Below the pieces are notes generated by a model. The model was not told the DNA's origin, searched no databases, and saw nothing but the letters and a program-made list of their open reading frames with translations. 64,000 nt of DNA from Corallium rubrum (lineage: Eukaryota; Cnidaria; Anthozoa; Scleralcyonacea; Coralliidae). This document shows, in pieces, positions 13,628 through 63,400 of the stretch. Within the stretch, counting starts at the first letter, position 1. Each line of letters opens with the position of its first letter. The stretch lies in assembly GCA_964035015.1 (NCBI GenBank), contig OZ036010.1:5005927-5069926 (forward strand), in the 5' to 3' direction. The translations under genes and the position numbers were made by a program.

Positions 13628-14119
13628 ATTAGTGTTTTCAGCTTGTCAGTTGGTAAGGGTTTTAGGTTGTTTTCGATATTTATACGCTTTTATAAAATAA
13701 GGTGTCCTCTACGCACGCTCTGATTGGCTGGGCTCCGTGCATTTATAAGAGAACATAGATCATGAATGACGTAAAGTGGCGTAGAATGGCGTCAGCTGGC
13801 CGGAAAAGCCCGCCAAATTCTAAAATTACCTCACTTTTAGTTTGTTTTTTATTATTATTATTTTATAAAACAAATAAAACAAACCGCTCCTGTGCATATG
13901 CACTCTTATAAAGGTACGTTCGACGTCATTTGAACACGAAAGAAGTGCAAAGGAATTCGGCTATCGCCTCGTGCCTCTACTCAACTTCTTTCGTGTTCAA
14001 ATGACGTCAAACGTGCCTTTATAAGAGTACATATGCACGGAGCTTTATGTTTTATTTGTTAAGTACAGCAAAAACATACGAAAAAACTTTACCAACTCAA
14101 GCTGAAAACACTAATAATC
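13628..14119. mobile_element. Fold-back element with nested arms
   Basis: The outer arms, about 13628-13675 and 14062-14119, share AGTGTTTTCAGCTTG and its inverse. The inner arms, about 13869-13947 and 13984-14060, share ACACGAAAGAAG and TGACGTCA-type text. A CCAAT-type motif at 13711-13730 lies in extra DNA inside the left arm, consistent with a second insertion. Confidence 0.75.
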
Positions 14120-14534: not shown

Positions 14535-14823
14535 ATGTTGTTGTGTTGTGCTGCATATATGTGCTGTGTTGTGTTGTGCTGTGTGGTGTGGGGTGGTGGG
14601 GTGGTGTGGTGGTGTGGTGATGTGGTGATGTGGTGGTGTGGTGGTGTGTTGTCTGTTGGGCTGGGGGGCTTGGCTGGGCTGTGTTGTGTTGTGTTGTGTT
14701 GTGTTGTGTTGTGTTGTGTTGTGTTGTGTTGTGTTGTGTTGTGTTGTGTTGTGTTGTGTTGTGTTGTGTTGTGTTGTGTTGTGTTGTGTTGTGTTGTGTT
14801 GTGTTGTGTTGTGTTGTGTTGTG
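14535..14823. repeat. TGTTG pentanucleotide array, left part
   Basis: A degenerate TG-rich lead (14535-14680) becomes uniform GTGTT repeats up to 14823. At that point the array is cut by the 2.8-kb inverted-repeat element and continues in the same orientation at 17623. Confidence 0.97.
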
Positions 14824-14866
14824 AGTAGATTAACCCGCACATATGGCGGAAATATGTGAAGAATGT

Positions 14867-14901
14867 TGACGTCACAGGGGTGTGTGCACAGGCTGACGTC
14901 A
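14867..14901. promoter_or_regulatory. Paired CRE-type palindromes in the left TIR
   Basis: Two perfect TGACGTCA octamers, at 14867 and 14894, are spaced 27 bp apart. They are mirrored at 17545 and 17572 in the right TIR. They lie about 130-165 bp before the start of the TIR ORF, so they may drive it through CREB/ATF-type factors. The site match is seen; the function is inferred. Confidence 0.4.
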
Positions 14902-15031
14902 TAATTTTTGCGAACGTACGCGAACGTTCCCAAATGTTCGATATCATCAAATTCCCATAAATTCTTTTTTTTCGGAATAAAGAACACAATGCTTATAGTT
15001 TTCATAGAGATACCATTACTATTGCATAAAT

Positions 15032-15479
15032 ATGGATACGAAGATTACGGAATGCCGAACTATAGCCGAACTAACGAGTTTGGAAAACATGTATGTCTTG
15101 AGCGAGTACGAACAGGGTTTAGTGTTTGAGAGGAAAGTGGAATTAATTACTCGTTCGCTCGAGTGCATGGGGAGTCGAAAATGAACAACTTGGGTTAACA
15201 GCGAACCTTACGGATTCCTGGACACCAGAACAAAGACAACAGTTTTTGATGGACTGGCAAGATGATGAGGCATTGCTACAGAACGAACGATTAGGGCTCG
15301 CTTCAAACCATATGGATTCTTGGACCCCTGAACAACGAGAAAATTTCATGATGGATTGGCAAGAAGACGAACCTTTGCTACAGACTGGCCGTGGGGAGAA
15401 GAGATCAATCGACGACGTAGACGATGGTGCAAGTACATCTGAACAGGTTAGCGATAATACCTTGCTCATTTGCTCATAA
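15032..15479 (+). pseudogene. TIR-encoded ORF, left copy (frameshifted)
   Basis: Left-arm copy of the 147-residue protein found intact on the minus strand at 16970-17413. An extra GCAT at about 15165 shifts the frame after about 44 codons. The downstream part, with two SWTPEQR repeats, is open again from about 15246. It reads inward from the element end. There is one other visible difference late in the frame (threonine for alanine). Confidence 0.8.
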
Positions 15480-15685
15480 CTGCTCTGAGCACTTGCTCAT
15501 TTGCTCATAACTGCTCATGAGCACTAGCTCATTTGCTCATAACTGCTCTGAGCACTTGCTCATTTGCTCATAACTGCTCGTGAGCACTTGCTCATTTGCT
15601 CGTAACTGCTCATGAGCACTTGCTCATTTGCTCATATGGCCCGATCAGGCCCGATAAGGCCCGATGGCCCGATTGCTGACTAGAC
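15450..15685. repeat. 32-bp GAGCA minisatellite and GGCCCGAT repeats, left arm
   Basis: About five units of a 31-32-bp repeat (TTGCTCATAACTGCTC core, itself partly palindromic), followed by three or four GGCCCGAT units at 15639-15672. Mirrored at 16738-16990. They lie at the inner end of the TIR. Confidence 0.9.
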
Positions 15686-15754
15686 ATCTAAATGTCATTT
15701 TATGAGTTATATTACACGTACGCGCTTGCGAATCAGAGAACTTCATTTCGAAAC

Positions 15755-15964
15755 ATGCCACGAAGACGTAAAGATTGTCCCTTATGTGGGAAACAAAGTT
15801 TGGTAAAGCTATCCAACCATTTGGCTGATGTTCATCAACTTTCTCGCGAGAAAAGGCAGCCATATCTTACTCAAGCAAGATTAAATGCGTTAGAGAATGA
15901 TCGACAAAAACCAGTTGCTAAAGTTGAAATAACTATAGAAAGCATGGACGAAAGAAATTCCTAG
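15755..15964 (+). CDS. Small C2H2 zinc-finger protein of the 2.8-kb element
   Basis: The start is chosen at the ATG at 15755, giving 69 residues; an in-frame upstream ATG at 15692 would add 21. The N-terminus is basic (MPRRRKD), followed by one finger with Cys8, Cys11, His22 and His27 (C-x2-C-x10-H-x4-H), CPLCGKQSLVKLSNHLADVH. After the finger comes a basic helix (SREKRQPYLTQARL) and a tail with no recognised domain. A single finger with a basic helix suggests DNA or RNA binding, perhaps of the element's own ends. Similar small fingers occur in invertebrate mobile DNA, as recalled and not checked. It ends at TAG, 78 bp before the next frame. Confidence 0.65.
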   Translation: MPRRRKDCPLCGKQSLVKLSNHLADVHQLSREKRQPYLTQARLNALENDRQKPVAKVEITIESMDERNS

Positions 15965-16041
15965 TCCAAAAATCAAGTGGTGTTTATTAATAAGGACTTT
16001 CCGTCCCTACTCGTCATTTACAGGTTGTCTGAGCTGAAAGA

Positions 16042-16602
16042 ATGAACTGCCAATATTGTGGGAAAATGTTTAGTAAAGGCTATAATCTAAGACGGCACGA
16101 AAACGATTATTGTCCGTCAAGGGAATACACTGACACTGAGGAGCCTGATATGGAATCTGATGAAGAAATGTCAAGCTCGTCGTATGATGAAAACAGTCAG
16201 AGTTCCGAAGATGATGGTGAAATAAAGGAAGAGATTGATCCTTGGGCAACCATGATTGACGATGCAAAAGTGACGGTTCGGCCAGAATATGATGAACTAT
16301 TAAAAACGTTGCAAATGGAAGGGCAAGAAGAAAGTGTAGCTAAGCAGAAAGCCTTTGAAAAAATTCTCCCTGAACTTCAGAAAGAATTCGCTGACGTTTA
16401 CGTGGATAATTTACGTTGGATGAAAGCACTTAAAAAGGATCCTGTGCATGGAAAGATCATGGAAACGAAGCAGACACTTGTGAACGAAGACTCGTTTGAT
16501 CCTGATGAAGCTTTATCTGCAGCGGTTGACAAAAGAAAGCTTCTTTTGAAACAGCTTTTAGAAGATCAAGGACGTGTTTCAGATAGTGATGATGATCAGT
16601 GA
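16042..16602 (+). CDS. C2HC zinc-finger acidic protein of the 2.8-kb element
   Basis: A 186-residue frame from the ATG at 16042. Residues 3-24 form a finger, CQYCGKMFSKGYNLRRHE, with Cys3, Cys6, His19 and Cys24 (a C2HC variant). Residues 30-66 are acidic and serine-rich. Residues 67-175 look helical and charged, with DNLRWMKALKKDPVHGKIM near 130 and VDKRKLLLKQLLED near the end. A possible acceptor (CATTTACAG) lies at 16015-16023 just before the ATG, so the frame may be spliced to an upstream leader. A polyadenylation signal, AATAAA, lies about 20 bp after the stop. No enzymatic domain is visible. The function is unknown; a DNA-binding regulator or scaffold is possible. Confidence 0.75.
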   Translation: MNCQYCGKMFSKGYNLRRHENDYCPSREYTDTEEPDMESDEEMSSSSYDENSQSSEDDGEIKEEIDPWATMIDDAKVTVRPEYDELLKTLQMEGQEESVAKQKAFEKILPELQKEFADVYVDNLRWMKALKKDPVHGKIMETKQTLVNEDSFDPDEALSAAVDKRKLLLKQLLEDQGRVSDSDDDQ

Positions 16603-16720
16603 ATCGATGTAATGCTCATGTGAAATAAAAATTTATCAAAATTGTATTGTGTCTTGTTTCATTTTTTAAGCAATAATAAGTCCTGGAGCATGACAAGCCT
16701 GGACTTGCCCAGGTTAGGAC

Positions 16721-16990
16721 GTCCAGTCAGCAAACGGGCCATCGGGCCGTATAGTGCCTTATAGGGCCAAAACGGGCCTGATCGGGCCATATGAGCAAAT
16801 GAGCAAGTGCTCATGAGCAGTTATGAGCAAATGAGCAAGTGCTCATGAGCAGTTATGAGCAAATGCTCAGAGCAGTTATGAGCAAATGAGCAAGTGCTAA
16901 GAGCAGTTATGAGCAAATGAGCAAGTGCTCATGAGCAGTTATGAGCAAATGAGCAAGTGCTCAGAGCAGTTATGAGCAAATGAGCAAGGT
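16721..16990. repeat. GAGCA minisatellite and GGCCCGAT repeats, right arm
   Basis: Inverse of 15450-15685 with about one extra 32-bp unit, which accounts for most of the 40-bp length difference between the two TIRs. Confidence 0.9.
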
Positions 16991-17413
16991 ATTATCGCTA
17001 ACCTGTTCAGATGCACTTGCACCATCGTCTACGTCGTCGATTGATCTCTTCTCCCCACGGCCAGTCTGTAGCAAAGGTTCGTCTTCTTGCCAATCCATCA
17101 TGAAATTTTCTCGTTGTTCAGGGGTCCAAGAATCCATATGGTTTGAAGCGAGCCCTAATCGTTCGTTCTGTAGCAATGCCTCATCATCTTGCCAGTCCAT
17201 CAAAAACTGTTGTCTTTGTTCTGGTGTCCAGGAATCCGTAAGGTTCGCTGTTAACCCAAGTTGTTCATTTTCGACTCCCCACTCGAGCGAACGAGTAATT
17301 AATTCCACTTTCCTCTCAAACACTAAACCCTGTTCGTACTCGCTCAAGACATACATGTTTTCCAAACTCGTTAGTTCGGCTATAGTTCGGCATTCCGTAA
17401 TCTTCGTATCCAT
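16970..17413 (-). CDS. TIR-encoded protein with duplicated SWTPEQR repeat, right copy
   Basis: An intact 147-residue frame starting at the ATG at 17413-17411 and reading inward. Residues about 1-50 are unique (MDTKITECRTIAELTSLEN). They are followed by two 34-residue repeats, each with LGL-x6-DSWTPEQR-x2-F-MDWQ-D-E-LLQ, then KRSIDDVDDG and a short tail. The acidic/aromatic repeat has no counterpart that I recognise. A possible donor (GAACAG/GTTAGC) lies about 33 bp before the stop, so the tail may be spliced into the centre of the element. Because the frame sits inside the inverted repeat, the element carries two copies, of which the left is frameshifted. Confidence 0.65.
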   Translation of the reverse strand: MDTKITECRTIAELTSLENMYVLSEYEQGLVFERKVELITRSLEWGVENEQLGLTANLTDSWTPEQRQQFLMDWQDDEALLQNERLGLASNHMDSWTPEQRENFMMDWQEDEPLLQTGRGEKRSIDDVDDGASASEQVSDNTLLICS

Positions 17414-17622
17414 ATTTATGCAATAGTAATGGTATCTCTATGAAAACTATAAGCATTGTGTTCTTTATTCCGAAAAAAAAGAATTTATGGGGAATTTGAT
17501 GATATCGAACATTTGGGAACGTTCGCGTACGTTCGCAAAAATGATGACGTCAGCCTGTGCGCACACCCCTGTGACGTCAACATTCTTCACATATTTCCGC
17601 CATATGTGCGGGTTAATCTACT

Positions 17623-17866
17623 GTTGTGTTGTGTTGTGTTGTGTTGTGTTGTGTTGTGTTGTGTTGTGTTGTGTTGTGTTGTGTGTTGTGTTGTGTTGTG
17701 TTGTGTTGTGTTGTGTTGTGTTGTGTTGTGTTGTGTTGTGTTGTGTTGTGTTGTGTTGTGTTGTGTTGTGTTGTGTTGTGTTGTGTTGTGTTGTATTTTG
17801 CTGTGTTGTGCTGCATGTGCTGTGTTGTGTTGCATGTGCTGTCTTGTGCACGCTGTGTTGTGTTAA
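17623..17866. repeat. TGTTG pentanucleotide array, right part
   Basis: Continues the array interrupted at 14823. One extra GT lies at about 17683; degenerate units with TGCATG follow beyond 17795. Confidence 0.97.
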
Positions 17867-27100: not shown

Positions 27101-30100
27101 AAATTTCCTGTGACACCGGAGAACCTGGTAATTAAGGGAAAACCCTCGAGACACAGGAGAGAACCAACAACTCTACTCACATGAAACTAAGTTGGTCACC
27201 TATCCAAGTACTATACCTTATTGGACCTTAACTTCAGTGGTGAGAGGAAGTGAGCTAACAGTTTGTGCGACCCATGCCTCCCATACAGTGCATGACTAGT
27301 TAAGTAATTTCATAGCAAAATTAACATACAACGTCAAAGAAATAGAAACGTTGGAAAACTCTATAACACTATGTGATTTTTCAGGATTATCTTTCTTAAA
27401 ATAACTCTCCTGATTTTTAGTTACTTCGTGGTCTGGTGAAAAAAATCATTGATAAATGCATTGAGCTTGGTGTTTCATCGCTAGCAATGCCAGCAATCGG
27501 AACAGGACAACACCGCTTCCCAGAAAGTTTGGTATTTAAGATATTCAGAGAAGAGATAACCAAAATGAGCACTTCCAATCCTTCGCCAGTTTGTTTAAAA
27601 GAAATTCGAGTGATTATCTTTAAAACAAGCCCATCTCCTTCACTTTCTGGGTCTCATTCCAGTGTTCAGTTTTCTTCACCTTCTTCGTCTGCTACATCTT
27701 GTTTGGTTCCTCCGCTTCCTTCGCCTCCTAAGAGATATTCGATGCCTGTGTATCCTCCGCCATATTCGCGTTTGGCATCTCGGTCTCCTCCAAGTTCTCC
27801 GCCTCCCGCCTCCCCTGCGTTCTAAGTCTCTTTCTGCAAGTACTCGGTATCTTCATTCTTATCGGTCTTTTCATGCAGGTAATCGGCAATTTCTGTCCCT
27901 CTTGGATGATCTATCATCCTCTCCTCCAGATTCTCCTCCAGATTCTCCTCCAGATTCTCCTCCGCCTTCTCTGCTTTCTAGGTTTGGATCAAGTAGTTGG
28001 TTTTTGCGAGATGATTTATTGCGCCTTTCTCTAGATTCTCCGCCTCTTCCACTTTCTAAGTCCCGATCTAATTCAAGTACTCCATATTCACCTCTTCTAC
28101 TAAAGCGACGAGTTATTAATCAAGCAACCACCTTCAGTGCTTCAAATCTTCCAGCACTCAGCTTTGGGTCTGTACGGGTCTTTCTTCACGAAGGTGACAT
28201 AACACAACGCCAGGCAGACGCCATCATCAACGTGTTACCAAATAACTTAACACTTTCAAACGGTGGAGGAGTATGCAAAAGCATCCTAAAAGGTGGTCAG
28301 AGTATCCAACAAGAGCTAAACGATCTTCAAGCCAATGTTTCGCCTGGTTCTGTATTTCTCACAAATGCTGGTTCATTGCAAAATGTCAAAAAGATTATAC
28401 ACTTTGTACCAACATCAACTGACGTCCAGGGACTCAAAGTGTCGATAGAAAAGTGCTTCAACTTGGCAAAACAGCAGTCTCTGGATCATGTTTCAATCCC
28501 AGCAATTGGAACAGCTTCATTTAACATCAGCCCAGAGGACTCAGCAGCTCTCATTTTAAAAGCCGCCAAGAATTTCTCAAACACCAATCACGCGCTAGAT
28601 ATAAGCATTGTCGTTTTTCAGAAAACAATGGTGACCGTTTTTGAGACAGTTGTGAACGAGAAAGCTCAAGATGAAGCAGCTGCAAAATCCCAATCAACAA
28701 ATTCACCAAGTTCTACCGCAACACAAGCTCAAAACACAAGTGGTCAACTGAGATTAGGAACAAATGACGAGGCAGTGATTCATTTTGTTGGCACTTGCCA
28801 ACAAGATATTAATGCAGCTCATGAAGAGGTGAAAATGTTTATCAAAAAAAGCATGGCAAGGAAGGTGATTGAAAACGAGAAAATCTATGAAGTCATTATA
28901 CAGCATCTCACTAAAGTTAAAAAGTTGTTGGAAAAACAAGATGTCCTTGTCATATGTTCACCGTCAAAAGAAGTGTCCATCGCAGGAATGATGGGAGATG
29001 TTTCCGACTGCAAGGATGAATTGACACGTTTGCTCGCAAATTATGAAGAGAAAGAACGAGAGGAGAATCAGTTGGATCACATTTCACAATATGTACAGTG
29101 GTCCTTAAACGATGGAGCTCAGTCAGTGATGTACGACAAACAGTCGAATGGAAAGATTGAAACGGCATTCCAGGATGATAAAAGCAAACTTTTTCACTTC
29201 ACAAGGAATGGAATCCAGTTCGAAATTGATTTCATTGCCAAGACTGAAAAGAACAAGCAAAATGGACAAGAGGTGAACATAACAAGAACAGTTCATGGAA
29301 GTTCAGGTATGGCTTGCATTTTATTTTAATGCAAACTCAATAAAATCTCACTAATCTCAGAATTTAGATGCATAACCATCGTTATAGTGTTCTTCCTGTT
29401 AACAACACTAAGCTACAACCTTGCACGGGCAATCTTGTAACACCATCAAAAACGCATTAATAATTCATGAGGAAAACACAAAGGAAATCAGTACCATGTC
29501 CGTGGTTTTATATCTGATAAAACTTATTAAATCTGATAAAACACTGCTGCTCATGTTTTAAATATTACATATTATCATTCATTTCGTTTCTATCCCGCAT
29601 TCTGATTGGTTAATTTACCTGCAAATAACTGAGTGCAAATAATTTTATGGGCATGCGCACTAGCGGTAACACTGCTGACGGCAAACAATTTTCGTAAACA
29701 TGGCGGCTAGTTCTTCAGCCATCCGAGGAAATAATCGAGATTATTTGGAAGCATCCTTAACGACAATGTACTTCAGAAAAGAAATAGTGAAAAGGAAGTT
29801 GTAGTGATATAAAAAGCAAGACTCGTGCCAACAAAAATAAGTTTTACGAAGATTTTAGTATGCCGAAGACAGAGAGGAATGGCGATCACTTACTTCAGGC
29901 ATTTCAACTTTTTAACTATTTTATGAATGATAAATCAATTATTGAACTCATCTATCGCAAAATATCATGATTTGTCCGTGTCTCGCTACTAGTTATTTGC
30001 CTCTGTCCACGGCATCGGCAAATAACTAGTAGCTCGCCACTGACTCCGACTCGTCCAGTAATTGATAATTATTATATGGCAGCAGCACTGAAAGGTCCGA

Positions 30101-31445: not shown

Positions 31446-33532
31446 CGCCTAGACGTATCTTTGCCAGCTGAGTGGGATCCACAGCCACCTAGCCAAGTCG
31501 TTCATCTTGTTTCACTGTCACAATCGTCGTCAGAGTATCAACAAGTGTTGAATCATTTCACTTCAAAAGGAGGAACAAGCCAGCAGATAATAAAGATTGA
31601 AAGAGTTCAGAATCCTGGTTTGTATAAAGCTTATCTTGCGAAGAAACAGTCGATGAACGGAGAAGAGAATGAAATGCAGTTGTTTCACGGCACGAAGGCA
31701 GACAACACTCATTTGATTAATGTGAATAACTTCAGCCGAAGTTTTGCTGGAATTCATGGTAAGAATATATTGCATGTTGAACAATTATTAACAACTTAGA
31801 AATTTACTCTTCCAAGGGAGAATCCTCAGACATCTTAGGCAGTTGTGGCCTAATATCAGTAAAATATAAGAAAAAGTGCTGAGGTGAGAGAAATTGGTGA
31901 CTGACTTTCTAAAGTGATACCAAATGGAATGATTAATGAATCATTGACCTGGTTCATGTGTTACGGAAAGATGATAGTAACTGGGTGAAGAAAAGCATGT
32001 TGTATGAGGTGGAAGGTGTGAGAGGAAGAAGGCTAAGGATGATATAGAGTCATGTGATGGAAAAGTACACGAGAGAAGGCAAGGCAACTTCATTTGTTTA
32101 TTGAACCTATATGGCCCTCACCCCTTGATATAACTGTAGTTAGTAGAATTAACTGTGGAAAGTATGGTGTTGATTCTGCGGAGGGAGAAAGAGAACGGGA
32201 AAGCGAACGGGGAAAGGGAAACGGAAAGCAAAAAAAAAAACGAAAGGGAAAGCAAAAGGAAAAACGAAAGGGAAAGCGAAAGGAAAAGGAAAATGAAACG
32301 TGAAAGCGAAAGGGAAAGCGAAATGGAGGGAGAAGTAGGAGAAGGAGAAGGAGAAGGAAAGGAAAAATGAAGCGAAAGAGAAAGGGAAAGAGAAAAAAAG
32401 CAGGGAGAAAGGAAACGGGAAAAGGAAAGGGGAGGAGGGGGGGGGAGAAAGGGAAAAGGAAGAGAAAGAGAAAGGGAAAGCGAAAAGGGAAAGCGAAAAG
32501 GGAAAGCGAAAAGGGAAAGGGAAAGGGAAAAGGAAAGGGAAAGGGAAAGGGAAATAGAAATAGAAAGAGAAAGAGAAAGAGCAAGAGAAAGAGAAAGAGA
32601 AAGAGAAAGAGAAAGAGAAAGAGAAAGAGAAAGAGAAAGAGAAAGAGAAAGAGAAAGAGAAAGAGAAAGAGAAAAGAAAGAAAGAAAGAGAAAGAGAAAG
32701 AGAAAGAGAAAGAGAAAGAGAAAGAGAAAGAGAAAGAGAAAGAGAAAGAGAAAGAGAAAGAGAAAGAGAAAGAGAAAGAGAAAGAGAAAGAGAAAGAGAA
32801 AGAGAAAGAGAAAGAGAAAGAGAAAGAGAAAGAGAAAGAGAAAGAGAAAGAGAAAGAGAAAGAGAAAGAGAAAGAGAAAGAGAAAGAGAAAATTGCGATG
32901 TCGAGCCACTAGTTAGCCCCCGCATGAGGGAAATTAATAGCCGTAAAAACAAATATTGTGAAAACAAATATTGTTTGTAGCACTATAAATTCTCAGTTGT
33001 ACCTTACAAAATTATCTTCTCCCAACAAATATTAATGCTGAGCTCCAAGACTCCAAGGCCTGAAATTTCCCTAAAACGTATCCACAGTAATTGCGTTTAA
33101 AATTTCTGTAGAACGGAGAAGCTCTCCACAATAATTTTGACAGTCACCACAACATTTTCTTCAGTTACAGTTCCTGCGAGTGCCTGCTGAAAATTTTAAA
33201 TTGCTATTTTTTAAATATAATATCAAATTTTTATTACACATTTAGGTGCTAAGTATGGAAATGGCGTGTATTTTGCCCGAGACGCCTCCTATTCCTTGCG
33301 TTATGCCCAAAGTGGCAATTTAAACCCCTGTCAAATGTATGTGGCCAAAGTTCTAGTTGGGAAATATACTACTGGTGAGGAGGGAATGAAGGCACCGCCA
33401 TCAAGGAATGATCCTGCCAATCCAGGAGTATTGTATAACTCTGTAGTGGATAACAATGTGGATCCGTCCATCTTTGTTATATTTACTGATCATCAATGCT
33501 ATCCTGGATACCTTATTACATTTCTTCAATAA
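23219..33532 (+). CDS. PARP14-like mono-ADP-ribosyltransferase, gene 1 (six recognised exons)
   Basis: The exons are about 23219-23502, 24460-25215, 25903-26130, 27421-29306, 31453-31758 and 33246-33532. All introns are GT/AG and the phases agree (0, 0, 0, 1, 1). The domain order is KH-like segments (exons 1-2), macro domain 1 (exons 3-4), a proline-rich linker, macro domain 2, a KH-like segment, WWE (end of exon 4), and the ART catalytic domain (exons 5-6). This matches PARP14/PARP15-type proteins, without the N-terminal RRM-like part, which may lie further upstream. The ART triad reads His (LFHGT), Tyr (GVYFA) and Ile (PSIFVIF). Lack of the catalytic Glu points to mono-ADP-ribosylation. Exon 4 is 1886 bp against 1894 in gene 2, an 8-bp difference that breaks the frame in the linker. 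As written, the product would stop after macro domain 1. It may be a pseudogene, an allele or a sequence error. Confidence 0.85.
23527..23637. mobile_element. Perfect 44-bp-arm hairpin in intron 1
   Basis: Arms 23527-23570 and 23594-23637 are exact complements (core CTGAGTCGCTACTCAGAG) around a 23-bp loop. A MITE-like palindrome. Confidence 0.85.
23828..23911. repeat. Inverted repeat in intron 1
   Basis: ATGCTAATTAGTTACAA and ACCACTAGTG face their complements across about 25 bp. Confidence 0.7.
24042..24360. repeat. (TA)n and ACTTC pentanucleotide arrays in intron 1
   Basis: A (TA)n tract at 24042-24103, a second at 24172-24195, then ACTTC units to about 24350 with a run of GCTTC variants at 24243-24273. 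Confidence 0.97.
24460..25215 (+). CDS. Gene 1 exon 2: KH-like segments and start of macro domain 1
   Basis: The acceptor is TTTATAG at 24453-24459 and the donor is AAAAG/GTAAGT at 25216, both strong. 252 codons in phase 0. It encodes at least two KH-like units (SVTIVASSAMEGQNAQDLL; KPLEESLKEYNVSIRID) and ends with TSKGVKVSWKYGCIEDEK, which fits the first strand of a macro domain continued in exon 3. Confidence 0.85.
25275..25862. repeat. TACTG/CACTG pentanucleotide array in intron 2
   Basis: Degenerate GTATC/ACCGT units pass to uniform TACTG (25375-25470), then CACTG or GCACT to 25862. It fills nearly the whole intron. Confidence 0.97.
25903..26130 (+). CDS. Gene 1 exon 3: macro domain 1, N-terminal half
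   Basis: The acceptor is TTTGTAG at 25896-25902; the donor is GAAAAG/GTAGAG at 26131. 76 codons. ADILVNSAHSDLND is the strand and ADP-ribose-binding loop of a macro domain; CTYVIHAVCSDW is the conserved strand before the second half. Gene 2 retains only the second half of this exon. Confidence 0.9.
26297..27117. mobile_element. 821-bp fold-back MITE in intron 3, absent from gene 2
   Basis: TIR GGTGTCACAGGAAATTTG and its inverse. The long imperfect arms continue inward with repeated GGGACAAATTTC and ACGTATG-type text. The matching intron of gene 2 lacks it, so it was inserted or lost after the duplication. It contains a nested element. Confidence 0.85.
26807..26983. mobile_element. Nested Tc1/mariner-type MITE
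   Basis: TAGACCACTTTCATAAT faces its complement about 140 bp away, with TA on both outer sides. The block interrupts the right arm of the 821-bp fold-back element, whose left arm has the uninterrupted counterpart near 26397. Confidence 0.7.
27120..27288 (-). repeat. 5S-rRNA-like SINE copy in intron 3
   Basis: On the minus strand, GAAGTTAAGG ... TACTTGGATAGGTGACC resembles the 5S internal control region. The same body is found at 20795, 44370 and 52935. The copy is shared with gene 2 and so precedes the duplication. Confidence 0.6.
27421..29306 (+). CDS. Gene 1 exon 4: macro 1 end, linker (frameshifted), macro 2, KH-like, WWE
   Basis: The acceptor is TGATTTTTAG and the donor is TTCAG/GTATGG at 29307. 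The first frame gives the macro 1 C-terminus (SLAMPAIGTGQHRFP) and a Ser/Pro-rich linker, and stops at 27823. A second frame (+1) is open to the donor. It gives the linker (SPPDSPPDS repeats), macro 2 (HEGDITQRQADAIIN, NGGGVCKSI, VSIPAIGTASF), a KH-like unit near EAVIHFVGTCQQDINAA, and WWE (YVQWSLNDG ... YDKQSNGKIETAF ... EIDFIAKTEKN). Gene 2 reads through this region in one frame, so the break is in the linker at about 27760-27830. Confidence 0.85.
29576..30839. mobile_element. 1.26-kb composite fold-back insertion in intron 4, absent from gene 2
   Basis: Gene 2 has ACATATTATAATATAATA, uninterrupted. Gene 1 has ACATATTAT, then 1.26 kb, then TTATAATATAATA. Inside are a hairpin at 29986-30034 (CTACTAGTTATTTGCC) and long inverted arms at 30645-30830 (CGGTCTGTACTAGTGAAATA). 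A CCAAT-type motif lies at 29599-29612. No gene is recognised. Confidence 0.75.
30840..31452. other. Remainder of intron 4 with two (TA)n tracts
   Basis: (TA)n at about 30858-30896 and 31376-31442. The 480 bp between them has no counterpart in gene 2. Confidence 0.7.
31453..31758 (+). CDS. Gene 1 exon 5: ART domain, N-terminal half
   Basis: The acceptor is TTCGCCTAG and the donor is CATG/GTAAGA. It encodes LPAEWDPQPPSQ, IERVQNPGLYKAYLAKK, then LFHGT with the NAD-binding His, and ends FSRSFAGIHG. These are standard PARP14-type ART motifs. Confidence 0.92.
31759..33245. other. Intron 5 of gene 1 with a 720-bp polypurine tract
   Basis: Positions 32170-32891 are almost pure A/G on the + strand. 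A mixed region passes to uniform GAAAGA hexamers (about 32570-32890). The matching intron of gene 2 has the same tract at about 500 bp. The rest of the intron is nearly identical between the two genes. Confidence 0.95.
33246..33532 (+). CDS. Gene 1 exon 6: ART domain, C-terminal half
   Basis: The acceptor is CACATTTAG; the stop is TAA at 33530. AKYGNGVYFARDASYS carries the second triad residue (Tyr), PSIFVIF the third position (Ile instead of Glu), and QCYPGYLITF is the usual PARP14-type C-terminus. PGYLITF here is PEYLITF in genes 2 and 3. Confidence 0.93.
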
Positions 33533-44218: not shown

Positions 44219-47200
44219 GTAGAGAAATTGAGTTGTAAGTAAATATGTAAAGTGACTATATTTATAATATTGATGGTTACTGATAACCCAATGGCCTTCA
44301 ACCCTTGATGAAACTAGTTCATAGACTCAACTGAAGAAACAAAGATGTTAATTTTACCAGAACATCTTCTAGACACAGGGGAGAACTAACAACTCTACAC
44401 TCACATGAAACTAAGTTGGTCACCCATCCAAGTATTAATCCTATTCGACCGGGGTTAACTTCAGTGGTGAGAGGCAGTGAGTTAACAGTTTGTGCGACCC
44501 ATGCCTCCCATACAGTAGTAATTTCATAGCAGGGATTATTTTAAGGAATTTTTATCACCGCACAAAGAGCTGAAAAAGGCATAAAATCTAACTTCAGTAG
44601 CACGTTAAACAGCGATGGAGCACTGAGTAGCTCGGTAGCTCGTCAGTAATCAACTAGTCAATATACGGCCATAGTATACATAAGCGGCCCTCCTTTTCCC
44701 AATTTTTAATGATTTAATCCCTTTCGCACAGCATACATTCGCATTTTCAAAATAACAATGGTAAAACAGTAGCACACGCCCGACACTGACGCATCGACCT
44801 GAGAGAAGCCTCAAGCATGTCATGTGGGGTTGACTGGTTGGCACCGTTGGGTAGTCTGGCTAAATAGTAAGAACACCAGCGTTTTGTTTATTAGGCCGGT
44901 ATAGGGCCTGCTATAGTAGCTATACTCATTCATGTATCTTGAAAGTTGAAATTAAGGGCATAAGGGTGTTAGTTTAAGGTACGCTTAACGTTATCAGAAG
45001 ATAGTGGACCTATCGTCTTATTTGTGTATTTGCTAATTTAAATATCGTAATAACATGATCGCCTCGGATTCTTTGTTCTCCGAGGGAATGTAAACCTCGT
45101 ATTTCCCTCATCACTCATGCAAGAGGGAAATTTATCCTTTGTCTTCTAATTTTCCCGTGCATGTTGATGAGGGAAAATTAGAAGACAAAGAAATCTTCTA
45201 ATTTTCCCGTGCATGTTGATGAGAGAAAATTAGAAGACAACGAAATCCTTTGACTTCTTCTAAATTTCCCGCTTGCATATATACTTTCCCTCATCAACAT
45301 GCAAAGGAAAATTAGATGCAACTTCTCTGATCAAACGTGTAAATTTCCTGTCGGTAAGATTCTCGAAGTTTTCCTCGGCGATCATATTACAAACTAATAA
45401 CATGACTTGGCCCGAGGACTTTTTCAAGAAATTTAATCGCTAATTTCCCTCAAGTCATGTTATTACTTATAAATATTAAATATATAAATATATGTTGGAA
45501 TGTAGTATGTTGGAATGTAGTATGTACTGTGCCTTTGAACATAGTTTCTGATGCAATCCTTTCACGAATAACGCATATTCTTAAATATTAAAGAAAAATT
45601 TATCACTGCACAAAATTGCGCTTATCACTGCACAAGTCTCATTTATCACTGCACAAATGGGTTATCACTGTACGTTAAAATAATCCCTGTTTCATAGCAA
45701 AATTAACACACAACTTGAAAGAAATAGTTGGAAAACGCTCTAATACTGTCTCACTGCATGGTCTTTCAGCATTATCTTTCTTAAAATAACTCTACTGAAT
45801 TTTATAGTTCCTCCGTGGTCTCGTGAAGAAAATCCTTGATAAATGCATCGAGCTTGGTGTTTCATCACTAGCAATGCCAGCAATCGGAACAGGACAACAC
45901 CGCTTCTCAGAAAATTTGGTATTTAAGATATTCAGAGAAGAGATAACCAAAATGAGCGCTTCCAATCCTTCGCCAGTTTGTTTAAAAGAAATTCGAGTGA
46001 TTATCTTTAAAACAAGCCCATCTCCTTCAGTTTCTGGGTCTCATTCGGGTCCTCCGCCTTATTCGCCTCCTCCGCCTCCTGGAAGACATTCGGTGTCTCC
46101 GCCTTATTCGCCTCCTCCGCCTCCTGGAAGACATTCGGTGTCTCCGCCTCATTCGCCTCCTCGGAGATTTTCTTACTCGCATCAGCACTGGTCTAATCCA
46201 TTAATCTCCTTGAATAATATATCGTCCTCTCCCCGAGATTCTCCAGCAGACTCTCCTCCAGATTCTCCTGCAAATCCTCCCCCTGATTCTGCTCCAGATT
46301 CTTCCCCGCCTTCTCTGTCGTTTAGGTTTGATTCAAGAATTCAGTCTCCCCGTTTTTCACTGACTCATGCAAGATCACCACTCTACCGATCTTTGCGAGG
46401 TGATTTATCGCTGCCTTGTCCATATTCTAACCTTACTTATTCTCCCTTACTTTATAAGTCTCAATTTGAGTCGAGTATCCCACCACTTCTTCCACTAAAG
46501 CGACGAGTTATTAACCAAGCAACCAAATCCAGTGCTTCAGATCTTCCAGCACTCAGCTTTGGGTCTGTACGGGTCTTCGTTCACGAAGGTGACATAACAC
46601 AACACCAGGCAGACGCCATCATTAACGTCTTACCAAATAACGTATCACTTTCAAACGGTGGAGGAGTATGCAAAAGCATCCTAAAAGGTGGTCAGAGTAT
46701 CCAACAAGAGCTAAACGATCTTCGACCTAACGTTTCGCCTGGTTCTGTATTTCTCACAAATGCCGGTTCATTGCAAAATGTCAAAAAGATTATACACTTT
46801 GTACCAACATCAACTGACGTCCAGGGACTCGAAACGGCAATAGAAAAGTGCTTCAACTTGGCAAAACTGCAGTCTCTGGATCATGTTTCAATCCCAGCAA
46901 TTGGAACGGCTTCATTTAACATCAGCTCAGAGGACTCAGCAGCTCTCATTTTAAAAGCGGCCAAGAATTTCTCAAACACCAATCAACCGCTAGATATAAG
47001 CATTGTCGTTTTTCAGAAAACAATGGTGACCGTTTTTGAGACAGTTGTGAACGAGAAAGCTCAAGATGAAGCAGCTGCAAAATCCCAATCAACAAATTCA
47101 CCAAGTTCTACCACAACACAAGCTCAAAACACAAGTGGTCAACTGAAATTAGGAACAAATGACGAGGCAGTGATTCATTTTGTTGGCACTTGCCAACAAG

Positions 47201-47987
47201 ATATTAATGCAGCTCATGAAGAGGTGAAAATGTTTATCAAAAAAAGCATGGCAAGGAAGGTGATTGACAACGAGAAAATCTATGAAGTCATTATACAGCA
47301 TCTCACTAAAGTTAAAAAGTTGTTCGAAAAACAAGATGTCCTTGTCATATGTTCACCGTCAAAAGAAGCGTCCATCGTAGGAATGATGGGAGATGTTTCC
47401 GACTGCAAGGATGAATTGACACGCTTGCTCGCAAATTATGAAGAGAAAGAACGAGAGGAGAATCAGTTGGATCACATTTCACAATATGTACAGTGGTCCT
47501 TTTACGATGGAGCTCAGGCAGTGATGTACGACAAACAGTCGAATGGAAAGATTGAAACAGCATTCCAGGATGATAAAAGCAAACTTTTTCACTTCACAAG
47601 GAATGGAATCCAGTTCGAAATTGATTTCACTGCCAAAACTGAAAAGAACCAGCAAAATGGACAAGTGGTGAACATAACAAGAACAGTTCATGGAAGTTCA
47701 GGTATGGTTTGCATTTATTTTAATGCAAACTCAATAAAATCTCTATAATCTCAGAATTTAGATGCATAACCATCGTTATAGTGTTCGTCCTGTTAACAAC
47801 ACTAAGCTACAACCTTGCACGGGCAATCTTCAGTAACACCATAAGAAAGGCATTAATAATTCATGAGGAAAACACAAAGGAAATCAGTACCATGTCCGTG
47901 GTTTTATATCTGATAAAACTTATTAAATCTGATAAAACACTGCTGCTCATGTTTTAAATATTACATATTATAATATAATATTTATTG

Positions 47988-48022
<35 letters not shown>

Positions 48023-50273
48023 GGAAAATTCATAGTGTAGAATATATACATTTTAAGACCAAACCGGGACCAGTTGCGAAAAATGTAACTACACAGGGCT
48101 TCCGGCAGGAATTGAACCCACGACCTTGCGATTCTAGTGCAATGCTCTGACCACTGAGCCACGGAGGGCGTTGCCGAGAGCTTGATCGCGAGTTCTGTAT
48201 ATATAATAAGGCGGTAATGCCAGGAGAGAATTGGGTATATTATAAGTAATATTGGGCATTTCACTCGATTACATAGCGTGTTCTAAGGATTTTGGGTGAA
48301 GGAAAATTCGAGTGTAGAATATATACATTTTAAGACCAAACCGGGACCAGTTGCGAAAAATGCAACTACACAGGCCTTTTTATATATATATATATATTTC
48401 GCCTAGACGTATCTTTGCCAGCTGAGTGGGATCCACAGCCACCGAGCCAAGTCGTTCATATTGTTTCACTGTCACAATCGTCGTCAGGGTATCAACAAGT
48501 GTTGAATCATTTCACTTCAACAGGAGGAACAAGCCAGCAGATAATAAAGATTGAGAGAGTTCAGAATCCTGGTTTGTATAAAGCTTATCTTGCGAAGAAA
48601 CAGTCGATGAACGGAGAAGAGAATGAAATGCAGTTGTTTCACGGCACGAAGGCAAACAAGACTCATTTGATTAATGTGAATAACTTTAGCCGAAGTTTTG
48701 CTGGAATTCATGGTAAGAATATATTGCATGTTGAACAATTATTAACAACTTAGAAATTTACTCTTCAAAGGGAGAACCCTCAGACATCTTAGGCAGTTGT
48801 GGCCTAATATCAGTAAAATGTAAGAAAAAGTGCTGAGGTGAGAGAAATTGGTGACTGACTTTCTAAAGTGAAACCAAATGGAATGATTAATGAATCATTG
48901 ACCTGGTTGATGTGTTACGGAAAGATGATGGTAACTGGGTGAAGAAAAGCATGTTGTATGAGGTGGAAGGTGTGAGAGGAAGAAGGCTAAGGATGATATA
49001 GAGTCATGTGATGGAAAAGTACATGAGAGAAGGCAAGGCAACTTAATTTGTTTATTGATCCTATATGGCCCTCACCCCTTGATATAACTATAGTTAGTAG
49101 AATTAACTGTGGAAACTATGGTGTTGATTCTGCGGAGGGAGAAAGAGAACGGGAAAGCGAACGGGGAAAGGGAAACGGAAAGTGAAAGGGAAAGCAAAAG
49201 GAAAAACGAAAGGGAAAGCGAAAGGAAAAGGAAAATGAAAAGTGAAAGCGAAAGCAAAATGGAGGGAGAAGTAGGAGAAGGAGAAGGAAAGGAAAAATGA
49301 AGCGAAAGAGAAAGGGAAAGAGAAAAAGAGCAGGGAGAAAGGAAACGGGAAAAGGAAAGGGGAGGAGGAGGAGGAGAAAGGGAAAAGGAAGAGAAAGAGA
49401 AAGAGAAAGAGAAAGAGAAAGAGAAAGAGAAAGAGAAAGAGAAAGAGAAAGAGAAAGAGAAAGAGAAAGAGAAAGAGAAAGAGAAAGAGAAAGAGAAAGA
49501 GAAAGAGAAAGAGAAAGAGAAAGAGAAAGAGAAAGAGAAAGAGAAAGAGAAAGAGAAAGAGAAAGGGAAAGCGAAAAGGGAAAGCGAAAAGGGAAAGGGA
49601 AAGGGAAATAGAAAGAGAAAGAGAAAGAGAAAATTGCGGTGTCGGGCCACTAGTTAGCCCCCGCATGGGGGAAATTAATAGCCGTAAAAACAAATATTGT
49701 GAAAACAAATATTGTTTGTAGTACTATAAATTCTCAGTTGTACCTTACAAAATTATCTTCTCCCAACAAATATTAATGCTGGGCTCCAAGGCTCCAAGGC
49801 CTGAAATTTCCCTAAAACGTATCCACAGTAATTGCGTTTAAAATTGCCGTAGAACGGAGAAGCTCTCCACAATAATTTTGACAGTCACCACAACATTTTC
49901 TTCAGTTACAGTTCCTGCGAGTGCCTGCTGAAAATTTTAAATTGCTATTTTTTAAATATAATATCAAATTTTTATTACACATTTAGGTGTTAAGTATGAA
50001 AATGGCGTGTATTTTGCCCGAGACGCCTCCTATTCCTTGCCTTATGCCAAACGTGGCAATTTAAACTACTGTCAAATGTATGTGGCCAAAGTTCTAGTTG
50101 GGAAATATACTACTGGTGGAGAGGGAATGAAGGCACCACCATCAAGGAATGATCCAGCCAATCCAGGAGTATTGTATGACTCTGTAGTGGATACCATTCG
50201 TAATCCGTCCATCTTTGTCATATTTACTGATCATCAATGCTATCCTGAATACCTTATTACATTTCTTCAATAA
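44100..50273 (+). CDS. PARP14-like mono-ADP-ribosyltransferase, gene 2 (5'-truncated tandem duplicate)
   Basis: The exons are 44100-44218 (partial), 45808-47701, 48407-48712 and 49987-50273. They are homologous to gene 1 exons 3-6, with the same splice sites and phases. The similarity to gene 1 starts abruptly at 44100, inside the macro 1 N-terminal half, so the KH-like exons and the start of macro 1 are missing. What remains is intact: the macro 1 C-half, proline-rich linker, macro 2, KH-like, WWE and ART domains. The ART triad is His-Tyr-Ile. One striking change is KYENGVYFA, with Glu for the Gly found in gene 1's KYGNGVYFA, close to the NAD site. Without an upstream promoter it could be a pseudogene, or it could be expressed from an internal or fused start. 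The frame has been kept, which suggests youth or function. Confidence 0.8.
44370..44516 (-). repeat. 5S-rRNA-like SINE copy in the gene 2 intron
   Basis: Orthologous to 27120-27288 by position, with the same orientation and body. Confidence 0.6.
44530..45689. mobile_element. Non-autonomous hAT-like element with exact 8-bp TSD
   Basis: TIR CAGGGATTATTTTAA and its exact complement. TTTCATAG flanks it at 44522-44529 and 45690-45697. Gene 1 has a single uninterrupted TTTCATAG at 27308-27315, the empty site. The right subterminal region has four copies of TTATCACTGCACAA-like motif, typical of hAT transposase-binding repeats. The interior has no transposase and carries a nested fold-back. Confidence 0.92.
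45052..45477. mobile_element. Nested fold-back within the hAT-like element
   Basis: TAATAACATGATCGCCTCGG near 45049 and the inverse-type CAAGTCATGTTATTA near 45455. Between them are direct repeats of TCTAATTTTCCCGTGCATG at 45155 and 45197 and several GAGGGAAATT motifs. Confidence 0.6.
45808..47701 (+). CDS. Gene 2 exon: macro 1 end, linker, macro 2, KH-like, WWE
   Basis: 1894 bp with an uninterrupted frame. The linker has tandem PPPPPGRHSVSPP units. Macro 2 has HEGDITQHQADAIIN, NGGGVCKSI and VSIPAIGTASFN. The canonical N-A-A-N after IN is replaced (INVLPNN), so ADP-ribose binding may differ. WWE: YVQWSFYDGAQAVMYDK ... EIDFTAKTEKN. The donor is TTCAG/GTATGG. Confidence 0.93.
47702..48017. other. 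Intron of gene 2, shared part, ending in (TA)n
   Basis: Nearly identical to 29307-29575 plus 30840 onward. It lacks the 1.26-kb insertion present in gene 1. Confidence 0.8.
48018..48376 (-). repeat. tRNA-derived SINE pair in the gene 2 intron
   Basis: An 80-bp sequence (AGAATATATACATTTTAAGA core) is present at 48018-48098 and 48296-48376. Between them, on the minus strand, lies a tRNA-like head with A-box TGGCTCAGTGGTC and B-box GGTTCAATTCC (about 48100-48172). The acceptor stem does not pair well and a long AT-rich tail follows, so this is a SINE, not a working tRNA. Gene 1 lacks it. Confidence 0.7.
48407..48712 (+). CDS. Gene 2 exon: ART domain, N-terminal half
   Basis: Same 306-bp length and splice sites as gene 1 exon 5. 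LFHGT and IERVQNPGLYKAY are conserved. Confidence 0.93.
48713..49986. other. Gene 2 last intron with a polypurine tract
   Basis: The A/G tract at about 49138-49632 includes uniform GAAAGA units (about 49390-49560). It is some 220 bp shorter than in gene 1. Confidence 0.95.
49987..50273 (+). CDS. Gene 2 exon: ART domain, C-terminal half
   Basis: KYENGVYFARDASYS, VAKVLVGKYTTGGEGM, PSIFVIFTDHQCYPEYLITF and stop. The Gly-to-Glu change before NGVYFA is the main oddity. Confidence 0.93.
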
Positions 50274-60125: not shown

Positions 60126-60415
60126 TTACTTAAATGTGATGAGATACTCTGGATAACATTGATGATCAAGGAATACAACAAACACGGTTGGATTCTGAGT
60201 GCTGTTAACAGTGGAGTCGTGCAACAATCCTGGATTATTTGGATCATTTTTTGGAGGAGGATTTTTCATATTATTTGCCCCTTGGGCGTAAGTTCCAACT
60301 AAAACTTTGCCCACGAACATTTGGAAAAATCCGTTGGCGTTGCTACCTCTCTTGGAATATCCCAATGATGTGCCGGCCTGTTTTGCGAAATATACTCCAA
60401 CTCCAAGAGCAACAC
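60126..60415 (-). CDS. Gene 3 last exon: ART domain, C-terminal half
   Basis: The acceptor is TTTTTAG on the minus strand. GVGVYFAKQAGTSLGYS, FVGKVLVGTYAQGANNM and QCYPEYLITFK, then TAA. Val replaces the catalytic Glu position. Confidence 0.92.
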
Positions 60416-63400
60416 CTAAAAATTACCATACATATCTAAATACCATCTAAAAAATGTATTTTACACGAAGGCCGTATATATGAGAGCAGACTAGTAAGAT
60501 GCGGCTTACACAAAACGCACTTTATATAACAAGTATAGGTTAGTTACTGAGGAGGTAACTTAGGTCTTTCGCCTCGGTCCCTAACTTTAGCTTATATGCA
60601 TGGGCGTTTATTGAAAAATTGAGCTCTGAAGGGGGGCGTTTCTTAGAAAGAGGCGTTTATTTCAAAATCTGATATTTCAGTTATTAAACAAAACGTCACA
60701 CAAATGTTCAATGTTCACACAACCTCATCATTAATATATAATAAGAACTAAAAAGTTCATCATATGCGTCCTTAACATCCGAATAAGCAATCAGAAACAA
60801 AAAATGTTCGCGCAATTCACATGTAACAATAAAAAAACTTCATCTTCTTAAAAGTTATTGTTAAAAAATAAAGCGCTGGCATTGTATTTTTGTTTTACGT
60901 TTTGTGTTGACAGGTATATTTGGAAGTAGCATTTATCAGGGGGGCGTATATTGGAGAGGGGGCGTCTATTGGAGAGGGGCGTTTATTTGATAGTGGGCGT
61001 CTATTGGAATAAATACGGTAGTTACCGACTTCGAGGTACCTAACCTACTTAGTTCATGCATGATGATATCCGTAATTATTTAACAAAAAAATAGTATTCT
61101 GGACGTATAGGTAATTTAAGAAATGGCCAAAATCAGATAAAATGAATAGGGTCCCCCCTTTACATTTTGACCAATTTTTAAACTTTTGAAGTAAGGCTAA
61201 ATTATGGCCATTTAGCAAGAATTAGCCTTTCTCTTTGCTAGGAAAGGTGCAAAAACGCTTTATCTCATCCAAACCATTCTTTTTCGACAAAATATTGGAA
61301 CTTTAATATGCAAGGTCACTAACCATTTTTTAACCGCGGTAGATCGAAGAGAATCGACGCATGAATGAACTAAGACGCCGTAAATATCAAAAACTTGCAT
61401 AAAACGTACAACAACTCATGTTTGAAAAAGCGAGCCAAAATAGAATGTAGTATCTTACCGTTGATTCCAGCATAACTTCGATTGAAATTATTTATACTGA
61501 TAGAATGGCTGTTGTTGGCGTGAGTTCCGTGAAACAACCTCATCTCATTGTGGGCACTTCCCATGGTTTGCTTTTTTATTGCATAAGCTTGATATAAGCT
61601 AGGATTCTGAACTCTTTCAATACTGTACACTTGACTGGCGTTGGTTGTGCCTCCAGTAGAGATGAACAAGTTTTGAATTTGTAAGTATTCGGCAGAAGTC
61701 TTTACTAAAGGAACAAGGTGAACCTTTTTACCAGGTGGCTGGGCGATCCAGTTGGGTGGCAACTGTATCCCTGCATAAAACAAATAGTAATCAAAAATGT
61801 TAAAAGATTGGTGTGTTAGCGAATTAGTACACAACCACACGTTGTACGATGAGATGTAGTATTGTGCGGTTTGGCGTAGAGTTGGTATGGTATGGTATGG
61901 TGTGGTGTGGTAAGGTATAGTGTGGTATATAGTGTGGTATGGCATGATGTGGTGTGGTATGGTATAGTATGGTGTAGTATAGTATAGTGTGGTATGGTAT
62001 AATGTGGTAAAGTACGGTATTGTGTGGTATGGTATGGTGTGGTATAGTATAGTGTGGTATGGTATAATGTGGTAAAGTATGGTATTGTGTGGTATGGTAT
62101 GGTGTGGTATAGTATAGATTAGTGTGGTATGGTATAGTGTGGTAAAGCATGGTATTGTGTAGTATGGTATAGTATGGTGTGGTATAGTATAGTGTAGTAT
62201 GGTATAGTGTGGTGAAGTATGGTATTGTGTGGTATAGTATAATATGGTGTGGTATAGTATAGTGTGGTATGGTATAGTGTGGTGTGGTATAGTGTGGTAT
62301 GGTATAGTATAGTGTAGTATGGTATAATGTGGTGAAGTATGGTATTGTGTGGTATAGTATAATGTGGTGTGGTATAATGTGGTGTGGTATATTATAGTGT
62401 GGTATGGTATAGTGTGGTATGATATGGTATGGTATGGTATGGTATGGTATGGTATGGTATGGTATGGTATGGTATGGTATGGTGTGGTATAGTGTGGTGT
62501 GGTATAGTATGATATGCAGTATGGTTTCGCACAAATATATACCTGAACTATTCGAAGAGCTATTATCTCCAAGCAATTTCCTGGATATTTTAACAACCTG
62601 GCCAGTTTTTAGATTCTTCTCAGTCATGGCAGTGAAATCAATTTCATAATTATCACCATTCTTGGAAACCTGGCAGCCTTTGTTTTCTTGAGCACTGTAA
62701 GCTATTTCAATTGTAGTATTCAATTCTTTATCGTAGTTAACAGATTGATTTGTCTGCATATACGACCACTGTACAGTCTTTGAAATAATCTTACAGACTG
62801 ATTTACGCTGATCAACCAGTTTAACCTTCCTTTCTTCATCATCGTATTCGTCAATCAAACACTGCATTTTATCCTTGCACTCGGAAACTTTCTCCGCCAT
62901 GCAGCCTCTAATCTCAACATCCGTTGCAGATGCACAACTGATGTTCACCTCGTTATCACGCGCCAAATTTTGAATTTTAGGCCAGTTCTTTGAAAGGATA
63001 TCGACAAGTTTCTGGTGCTTGATTCTTGCAACTCCGAGATTCTCCTTGATAAATTTCTCCATGTCCAGAAGAGACTCATCAGCGCTTTTCTTAGAGCTTG
63101 CGACAATGTTAACCCGGATAACCTCAGCGGTTTGTCCAGTTTTTAGTGTTTTATAATCAGTGTCTTGCGGTTGACTTGAATTTGTGTTTCCGTTGGGATT
63201 GTTGGAAGCTGCGGTTGCAGTCGGGACGGTAGCTTGCGCAGCTGGTGCTGTTTGTGGCGGTGCTGCTGCTGCTGGTTGTGGCGGTGCTGCTGCTTGTGGC
63301 TGTGGTACAGCAGGTGCTTGTACGGCATTCACGCTTGCTTTCTCGTGTATCTTAGCTTCAAACTGTGGGACCATACTCTTTTGAAACACCACTATATTAA

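Follow-up and report, generated by a model that had tools for sequence, protein, structure and literature searches.

Polintons, or Mavericks, are now regarded as integrated viruses that possibly form particles; their ends begin with AG and finish with CT, and a 6-bp target-site duplication is general among them. One account gives their length as 15–20 kb (PMC4028283), and another describes, in the N-terminal region of their polymerase, a terminal-protein domain responsible for the priming of copying and, after it, an OTU-like protease (PMC11071308). In a fly, fragmented Maverick consensuses of 600–4500 bp are interpreted as deletion (PMC8504770), and the literature searched, with incomplete coverage, yielded no non-autonomous or satellite Polintons, that is, smaller elements living off Polintons. 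Here we analyze a stretch of 64,000 nucleotides from Corallium rubrum (the window), together with its 474-Mb source assembly (312 contigs), and describe a compact element of 2799 bp, with ends exactly at positions 14824 and 17622, in which long inverted arms enclose two zinc-finger genes, ZF1 and ZF2 (Table 1). The element is very probably a non-autonomous satellite of Polintons and one of many closely similar copies, a reading adopted because its termini are shared with Polintons, its insertions carry 6-bp duplications, and its arms hold a piece of the Polinton polymerase gene PolB.

The element resembles Polintons in its termini, its 6-bp duplication, its pPolB start, and a ZF2-like accessory gene found near the integrases of one Polinton family. 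It differs in size (2.8 kb versus 15.3 kb for the full Polinton described below), in that no polymerase core, integrase, or protease was found in it, in arms that combine a gene piece with tandem arrays, and in ZF1, which was not seen in the full Polintons studied here. The gene set of an autonomous Polinton (pPolB, RVE integrase, protease, ATPase) is lacking, with PolB reduced to its first ~147 codons, while the marks of a non-autonomous one are present, namely a terminus common with a full Polinton, a 6-bp duplication, and AG...CT ends. Frames of at least 60 amino acids (aa) in the element centre reach a maximum of 186 aa, and neither an integrase nor a polymerase was found there; ZF1 and ZF2 have no Pfam match to pPolB, RVE integrase, protease, or ATPase. 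A preliminary description of the locus had reported a 2799-bp element with long terminal inverted repeats, AG/CT ends of Polinton type, two central zinc-finger frames, and no recognizable transposase, all of which holds, none of the three proteins having a transposase match in Pfam. It had also left a choice between a non-autonomous satellite with putative DNA-binding proteins and a new type of mobile unit; the Polinton termini, 6-bp duplications, and PolB piece favor the former, and the latter is not needed.

By sequence comparison, the arm protein noted earlier for its SWTPEQR motif corresponds to the N-terminal ~147 residues of a DNA polymerase B of Polinton type. The right-arm open reading frame (ORF) shows 89.8% identity across its 147 aa with the start of a 1387-aa frame at locus L039, which matches DNA_pol_B_2 at 3.9e-50 (Pfam). 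Database relatives of the arm protein extend beyond the point where the window copy runs into its tandem array, and a longer relative has at least 165 matches in the genome (best 150 of 521 candidates scored), among which open frames reach 1445 aa. The window arm is 92–99% identical to Polinton PolB starts in the genome; the one at C1:28960075 (L042) matches it at DNA level with 98.8% identity over 492 bp. The left-arm array occupies the place where the remaining polymerase gene would continue. Arm against arm, the window element shows 93.5% identity over 909 columns (blastn), or 98.7% with gaps excluded (861 aligned, 11 substitutions, 4 indels). The long repeats of the preliminary description are thus real, with lengths slightly above the 862 and 902 bp first given, and the inward ORF that it placed in each repeat is intact in the right arm and broken in the left because of a 4-base insertion.

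A larger element with the same ends, the existence of which had been suggested as a check, is present in the genome. This Polinton at C156:601736-617047 spans 15,312 bp, begins at both ends with AGTAGCTTAATCC reading inward, and has CACAAC flanks on both sides. Its left end equals the terminus of compact copy L049 at 200 of 200 bases, and both its ends carry the motif AGTAG[AC]TTA of the compact copies. Pfam finds DNA_pol_B_2 in two frames, an rve integrase with Chromo, and a Peptidase_C5 barely over the cut-off; an ATPase-like frame has weak AAA matches only, and two presumed capsid frames have no Pfam match at all. Integrases of the C156 family occur at 35 places with 79–100% identity, eight of them with a stop-free 366-aa frame, and 28 of 34 (C1:36528-37604 excluded) have a related PolB no more than 10 kb away. 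A second Polinton family (54–59% integrase identity) occupies 77 further places (e.g., C82:259000-260058), and its frame of ~360 aa is stop-free at 69 of the 77 listed, which suggests that this family spread recently. The right terminus of the C156 Polinton also holds the same PolB N-terminal segment (L034:6327-7448; C156:615726-616847, minus strand), which there continues directly into a C2H2 finger array and forms a 374-aa frame with zf-H2C2_2 at 2e-47; the duplicated arm here lends the polymerase's start to a second frame.

Compact copies are numerous. The terminal 127 bp has at least 53 matches in the genome (best 40 of 270 candidates scored), ZF1 at least 150 (best 150 of 206, some of them pieces of one copy), and ZF2 at least 150, with open frames (best 150 of 426); among the ZF2 matches listed, 25 (window included) are identical across all 69 residues and 74 reach at least 94% over at least 67 residues. 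Coding pieces of the fetched copies are mostly 97–99.5% identical to those of the window. The end motif AGTAG[AC]TTA was first read off arm ends and then searched by script in the window and 33 fetched loci; sixteen compact copies, window included, have it at both ends, by selection since the motif was the search criterion, and the pair is absent in 5 of the 20 compact loci fetched (L050, L055, L056, L063, and L064). Fourteen of these 16 copies are flanked by an exact 6-bp duplication, with 5 of 6 bases agreeing in L048 and 1 of 6 in L060; lengths of 4, 5, 7, and 8 gave no full match in motif-paired copies, except at the poly-G target of L049. The same 6-bp length is found in the C156 Polinton, the one Polinton checked. 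The PolB locus L039 also has a motif pair, with 3 of 6 flanking bases alike, and was excluded from the 16. In the window itself, the insertion site is a TGTTG microsatellite, in which, by inspection, deleting one GTTGTG copy restores the 5-bp phase; because this microsatellite surrounds the element, the GTTGTG duplication is weak as sole evidence. Collecting copies by terminal sequence and flanks, as had been proposed, therefore gives many copies in different flanks rather than a single locus.

The 1029-bp centre of the window element, whole or in large part, is found again at independent sites between differing arms, with ~96–99% identity as measured on each copy's longest stretch. Arms range from 0.6 to 1.2 kb among compact copies. 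Some copies contain both zinc-finger genes and others (L047, L051, L058, L059, L061, and L063) ZF1 without ZF2, most of these others having a portion of the centre repeated at another position within the element. Paired satellite centres, either facing between one arm-piece pair or back to back, were seen at L064 (C1:41634500-41639500) and L012/L013 (C8:53207678-53211395), which are possible head-to-head dimers.

Given the ends, duplications, and polymerase piece in common with Polintons, the satellite probably relies on Polinton enzymes, supplied in trans, for its movement. We propose that Polinton PolB would start protein-primed copying at the shared termini, that the two arms of one molecule may template each other during copying (as a panhandle or by snap-back), and that the Polinton integrase would insert the copied product. 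Such templating would leave arms near-identical within most copies yet far apart between copies, and would place one shortened polymerase gene end in both arms. When the terminal 200 bp (fixed cut) were compared in 17 elements, including the C156 Polinton, an element's own two arms were 95–100% identical in 12, the mean identity between elements was 40%, and in 13 no other arm was closer than the partner arm. The arms thus appear to be homogenized within most copies, as expected if one arm templates the other. Two near-palindromic Polinton derivatives with polymerase-bearing arms also occur in the genome and fit the same copy-back process: L035/L036 (C49:8474500-8488400; arms of ~5.8 kb at 99.7% identity, ~650 bases between) and L037/L038 (C20:2809900-2823000; ~5.6 kb, 98.6%, ~300 bases between).

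Besides the polymerase piece, the satellite encodes two zinc-finger proteins. ZF1 has a single C2H2 finger (Pfam 20.7 bits, below the 25.2 cut-off) and a C-terminal domain that is conserved in relatives, small and all-helical in the structure model, and without a Pfam match above cut-off or a Foldseek match at E<=0.001; the finger of ZF2 was seen by inspection, its Pfam match being sub-threshold. The ZF1 family comprises at least 939 database proteins (7990 candidates scored); a precomputed Pfam domain is absent from all 120 members listed, and seven positions (e.g., W68, W126, and D133) are invariant across 44 aligned relatives; the family's size and these invariant positions argue for long-term selection somewhere. 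The two genes have different neighbors in the genome. Among 63 ZF2-like places, 38 lie within 8 kb of a second-family integrase, mostly ~5.2 or 6.1 kb away, and none lies within 8 kb of the 34 C156-family integrases compared. For ZF1, one of 150 rows is within 8 kb of an integrase, and around the 44 long PolB frames no row occurs within 15 kb; ZF1 was thus observed in this genome almost exclusively in satellites. The satellite is therefore a mosaic, with relatives of ZF2 near the second family, ends shared with the C156 Polinton, and ZF1 near neither. Of 29 places with the 31/32-bp array (best 40 of 327 candidates scored), 27 have ZF1 or ZF2 no farther than 2 kb away. Our guess, a weak one and less favored than the copying steps above, is that ZF1 and/or ZF2 might bind the arrays or the ends and so aid the satellite in cis, whether in its copying, in its expression, or in competing against the helper.

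Several observations weigh against the satellite reading or parts of it. Own-arm identity is low in five elements (L059 48%, L061 48%, L065 74%, L060 80%, and the C156 Polinton 26%), possibly because the fixed 200-bp cut crosses indels or repeats, or because these elements are recombinant. The C156 PolB is split across two frames and broken in that copy, a candidate helper that may itself be inactive; no 31/32-bp array was found in this Polinton, and L041 alone among 13 large stretches has an array match. The arms of some compact copies (L047, L058, L059, and L060) have no PolB fragment. One ZF1 group is finger-less; six copies read directly show that 63 bp were lost in frame, and 22 of the 150 listed rows fit this (start at residue 20, 168-aa frame, 21 residues shorter). 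Within the genome, omega for ZF1 is 1.00 for singletons, 0.46 for shared substitutions (p 0.08), and 0.81 for all (p 0.23); it is 0.80 for ZF2 (all; p 0.41) and 0.64 for the shortened PolB frame (p 0.049). The zinc-finger genes are thus no better preserved than the PolB fragment, and these values do not demonstrate selection on them; near-neutral omega is compatible with young copies decaying after insertion, and thus neither shows nor excludes a function.

These same values suit the best-surviving alternative, a simple deletion derivative in which ZF1 and ZF2 are passengers without a role and the spread is owed only to retained Polinton ends. We regard this as a real possibility, although the less likely one: substitutions in recent copies are near neutral, the finger-less type occurs to the extent given above, and 22 of the 150 listed ZF1 matches contain a stop. 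On the other hand, passengers should not retain a family of such size with seven invariant positions, arrays accompany the zinc-finger genes at nearly all array places, and 82 of the 150 listed matches cover ZF1 residues 1-186 without a stop, a weak argument because the copies are so similar. An independent autonomous element using its zinc-finger protein as a recombinase is very unlikely. It would draw on the lack of Pfam and Foldseek matches for the ZF1 C-terminal domain, but the modeled domain is small and all-helical and gives no hint of a nuclease, and the L049 end identical to a Polinton end, the like 6-bp duplications, and the PolB fragment in the arms all speak for Polintons; the existence of a full Polinton with these termini mostly refutes it. 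It is just as improbable that the compact copies are decayed full Polintons, each emptied of its interior once inserted. Polintons whose frames are broken or split do exist in the genome, but the same centre is present at independent sites between arms that differ, and independent deletions would not yield the same centre and arrays. An assembly inversion, a possibility raised in the preliminary description, can be dismissed along with chance, as no evidence for such an artefact was found, the arms are found again at sites independent of one another, and each of the 16 two-ended copies has its own flanks, which in 14 show an exact target duplication.

Table 1. Features of the satellite element and its flanks (window positions)
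Feature	Position	Strand	Remarks
Target duplication, left copy	14818..14823		GTTGTG, 6 bp
Left inverted arm	14824..15688	+	865 bp, starts AGTAGATTA
TGACGTCA sites (two) near left end	14867..14901 (starts 14867, 14894)		Mirrored at 17545, 17572; taken by us to be CRE-like
Left-arm PolB N-terminal frame, broken	15032..15479	+	4-base insertion 15164-15167
Left-arm tandem array	15461..15636		31/32-bp units, ~5.6 copies
ZF2 gene	15755..15964	+	69 aa, CPLC...H...H finger; relatives in second Polinton family
ZF1 gene	16042..16602	+	186 aa: N-terminal C2H2 finger, acidic linker, helical C-terminal domain
AATAAA	16624..16629	+	Directly 3' of ZF1 stop; presumably a polyadenylation signal
Right inverted arm	16718..17622	-	905 bp
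Right-arm tandem array	16790..16988		31/32-bp units, ~6.6 copies
Right-arm ORF	16970..17413	-	147 aa, PolB N-terminal part, ends at 'VSDN'
Target duplication, right copy	17623..17628		GTTGTG, 6 bp

Elsewhere in the window, repeated frames at 27421-29326, 33221-33529, 45808-47745, 49962-50270, and 60129-60422 resemble macrodomain/PARP-type genes, a tRNA match of 44.3 bits lies at 48097-48168 (minus strand), and several short hairpin-like inverted repeats, at 13869-14060 and other places, are possible small non-autonomous elements.

Among other small mobile elements, miniature inverted-repeat transposable elements (MITEs) and ordinary non-autonomous DNA transposons are likewise short, present in many copies, and equipped with the inverted repeats of an autonomous partner whose enzymes would act in trans; the satellite differs from the noncoding MITEs in retaining two ORFs, one of them from a conserved protein family. 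It shares long, internally repetitive inverted arms with Foldback/Galileo elements, its arrays filling only part of each arm, and differs in ends and a polymerase piece that are of Polinton rather than P-element type and in its 6-bp duplications, unlike those of P-element/FB type. Transpovirons (7-kb episomes of Mimiviridae) and virophages are small DNA parasites dependent on a larger virus-like element, as the satellite would be; here the exploited element is a chromosomal Polinton, and the satellite is integrated, present in many copies, and has no capsid gene that we found. Pack-MULEs (PMC6431247) also hold genes between terminal inverted repeats and use enzymes in trans, whereas the satellite repeats one zinc-finger cassette instead of varied gene fragments.

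More tentatively, these copies might be not a one-off deletion but a long-lived lineage of Polinton satellites, with its own conserved ZF1 binding arrays or termini, that exploits any Polinton giving ends and enzymes and swaps arms between families, a chromosomal counterpart of virophages and transpovirons; we consider this somewhat doubtful. Because the satellite occurs in many copies, has Polinton ends, encodes its own protein, and shares the genome with a candidate helper family, the relation between parasite and host element can be tested. The large ZF1 family, without a precomputed Pfam domain in the members listed, is now placed in mobile elements. Finally, the arms suggest how the inverted ends of protein-primed elements may remain the same on one molecule even as they diverge rapidly from those of other molecules.

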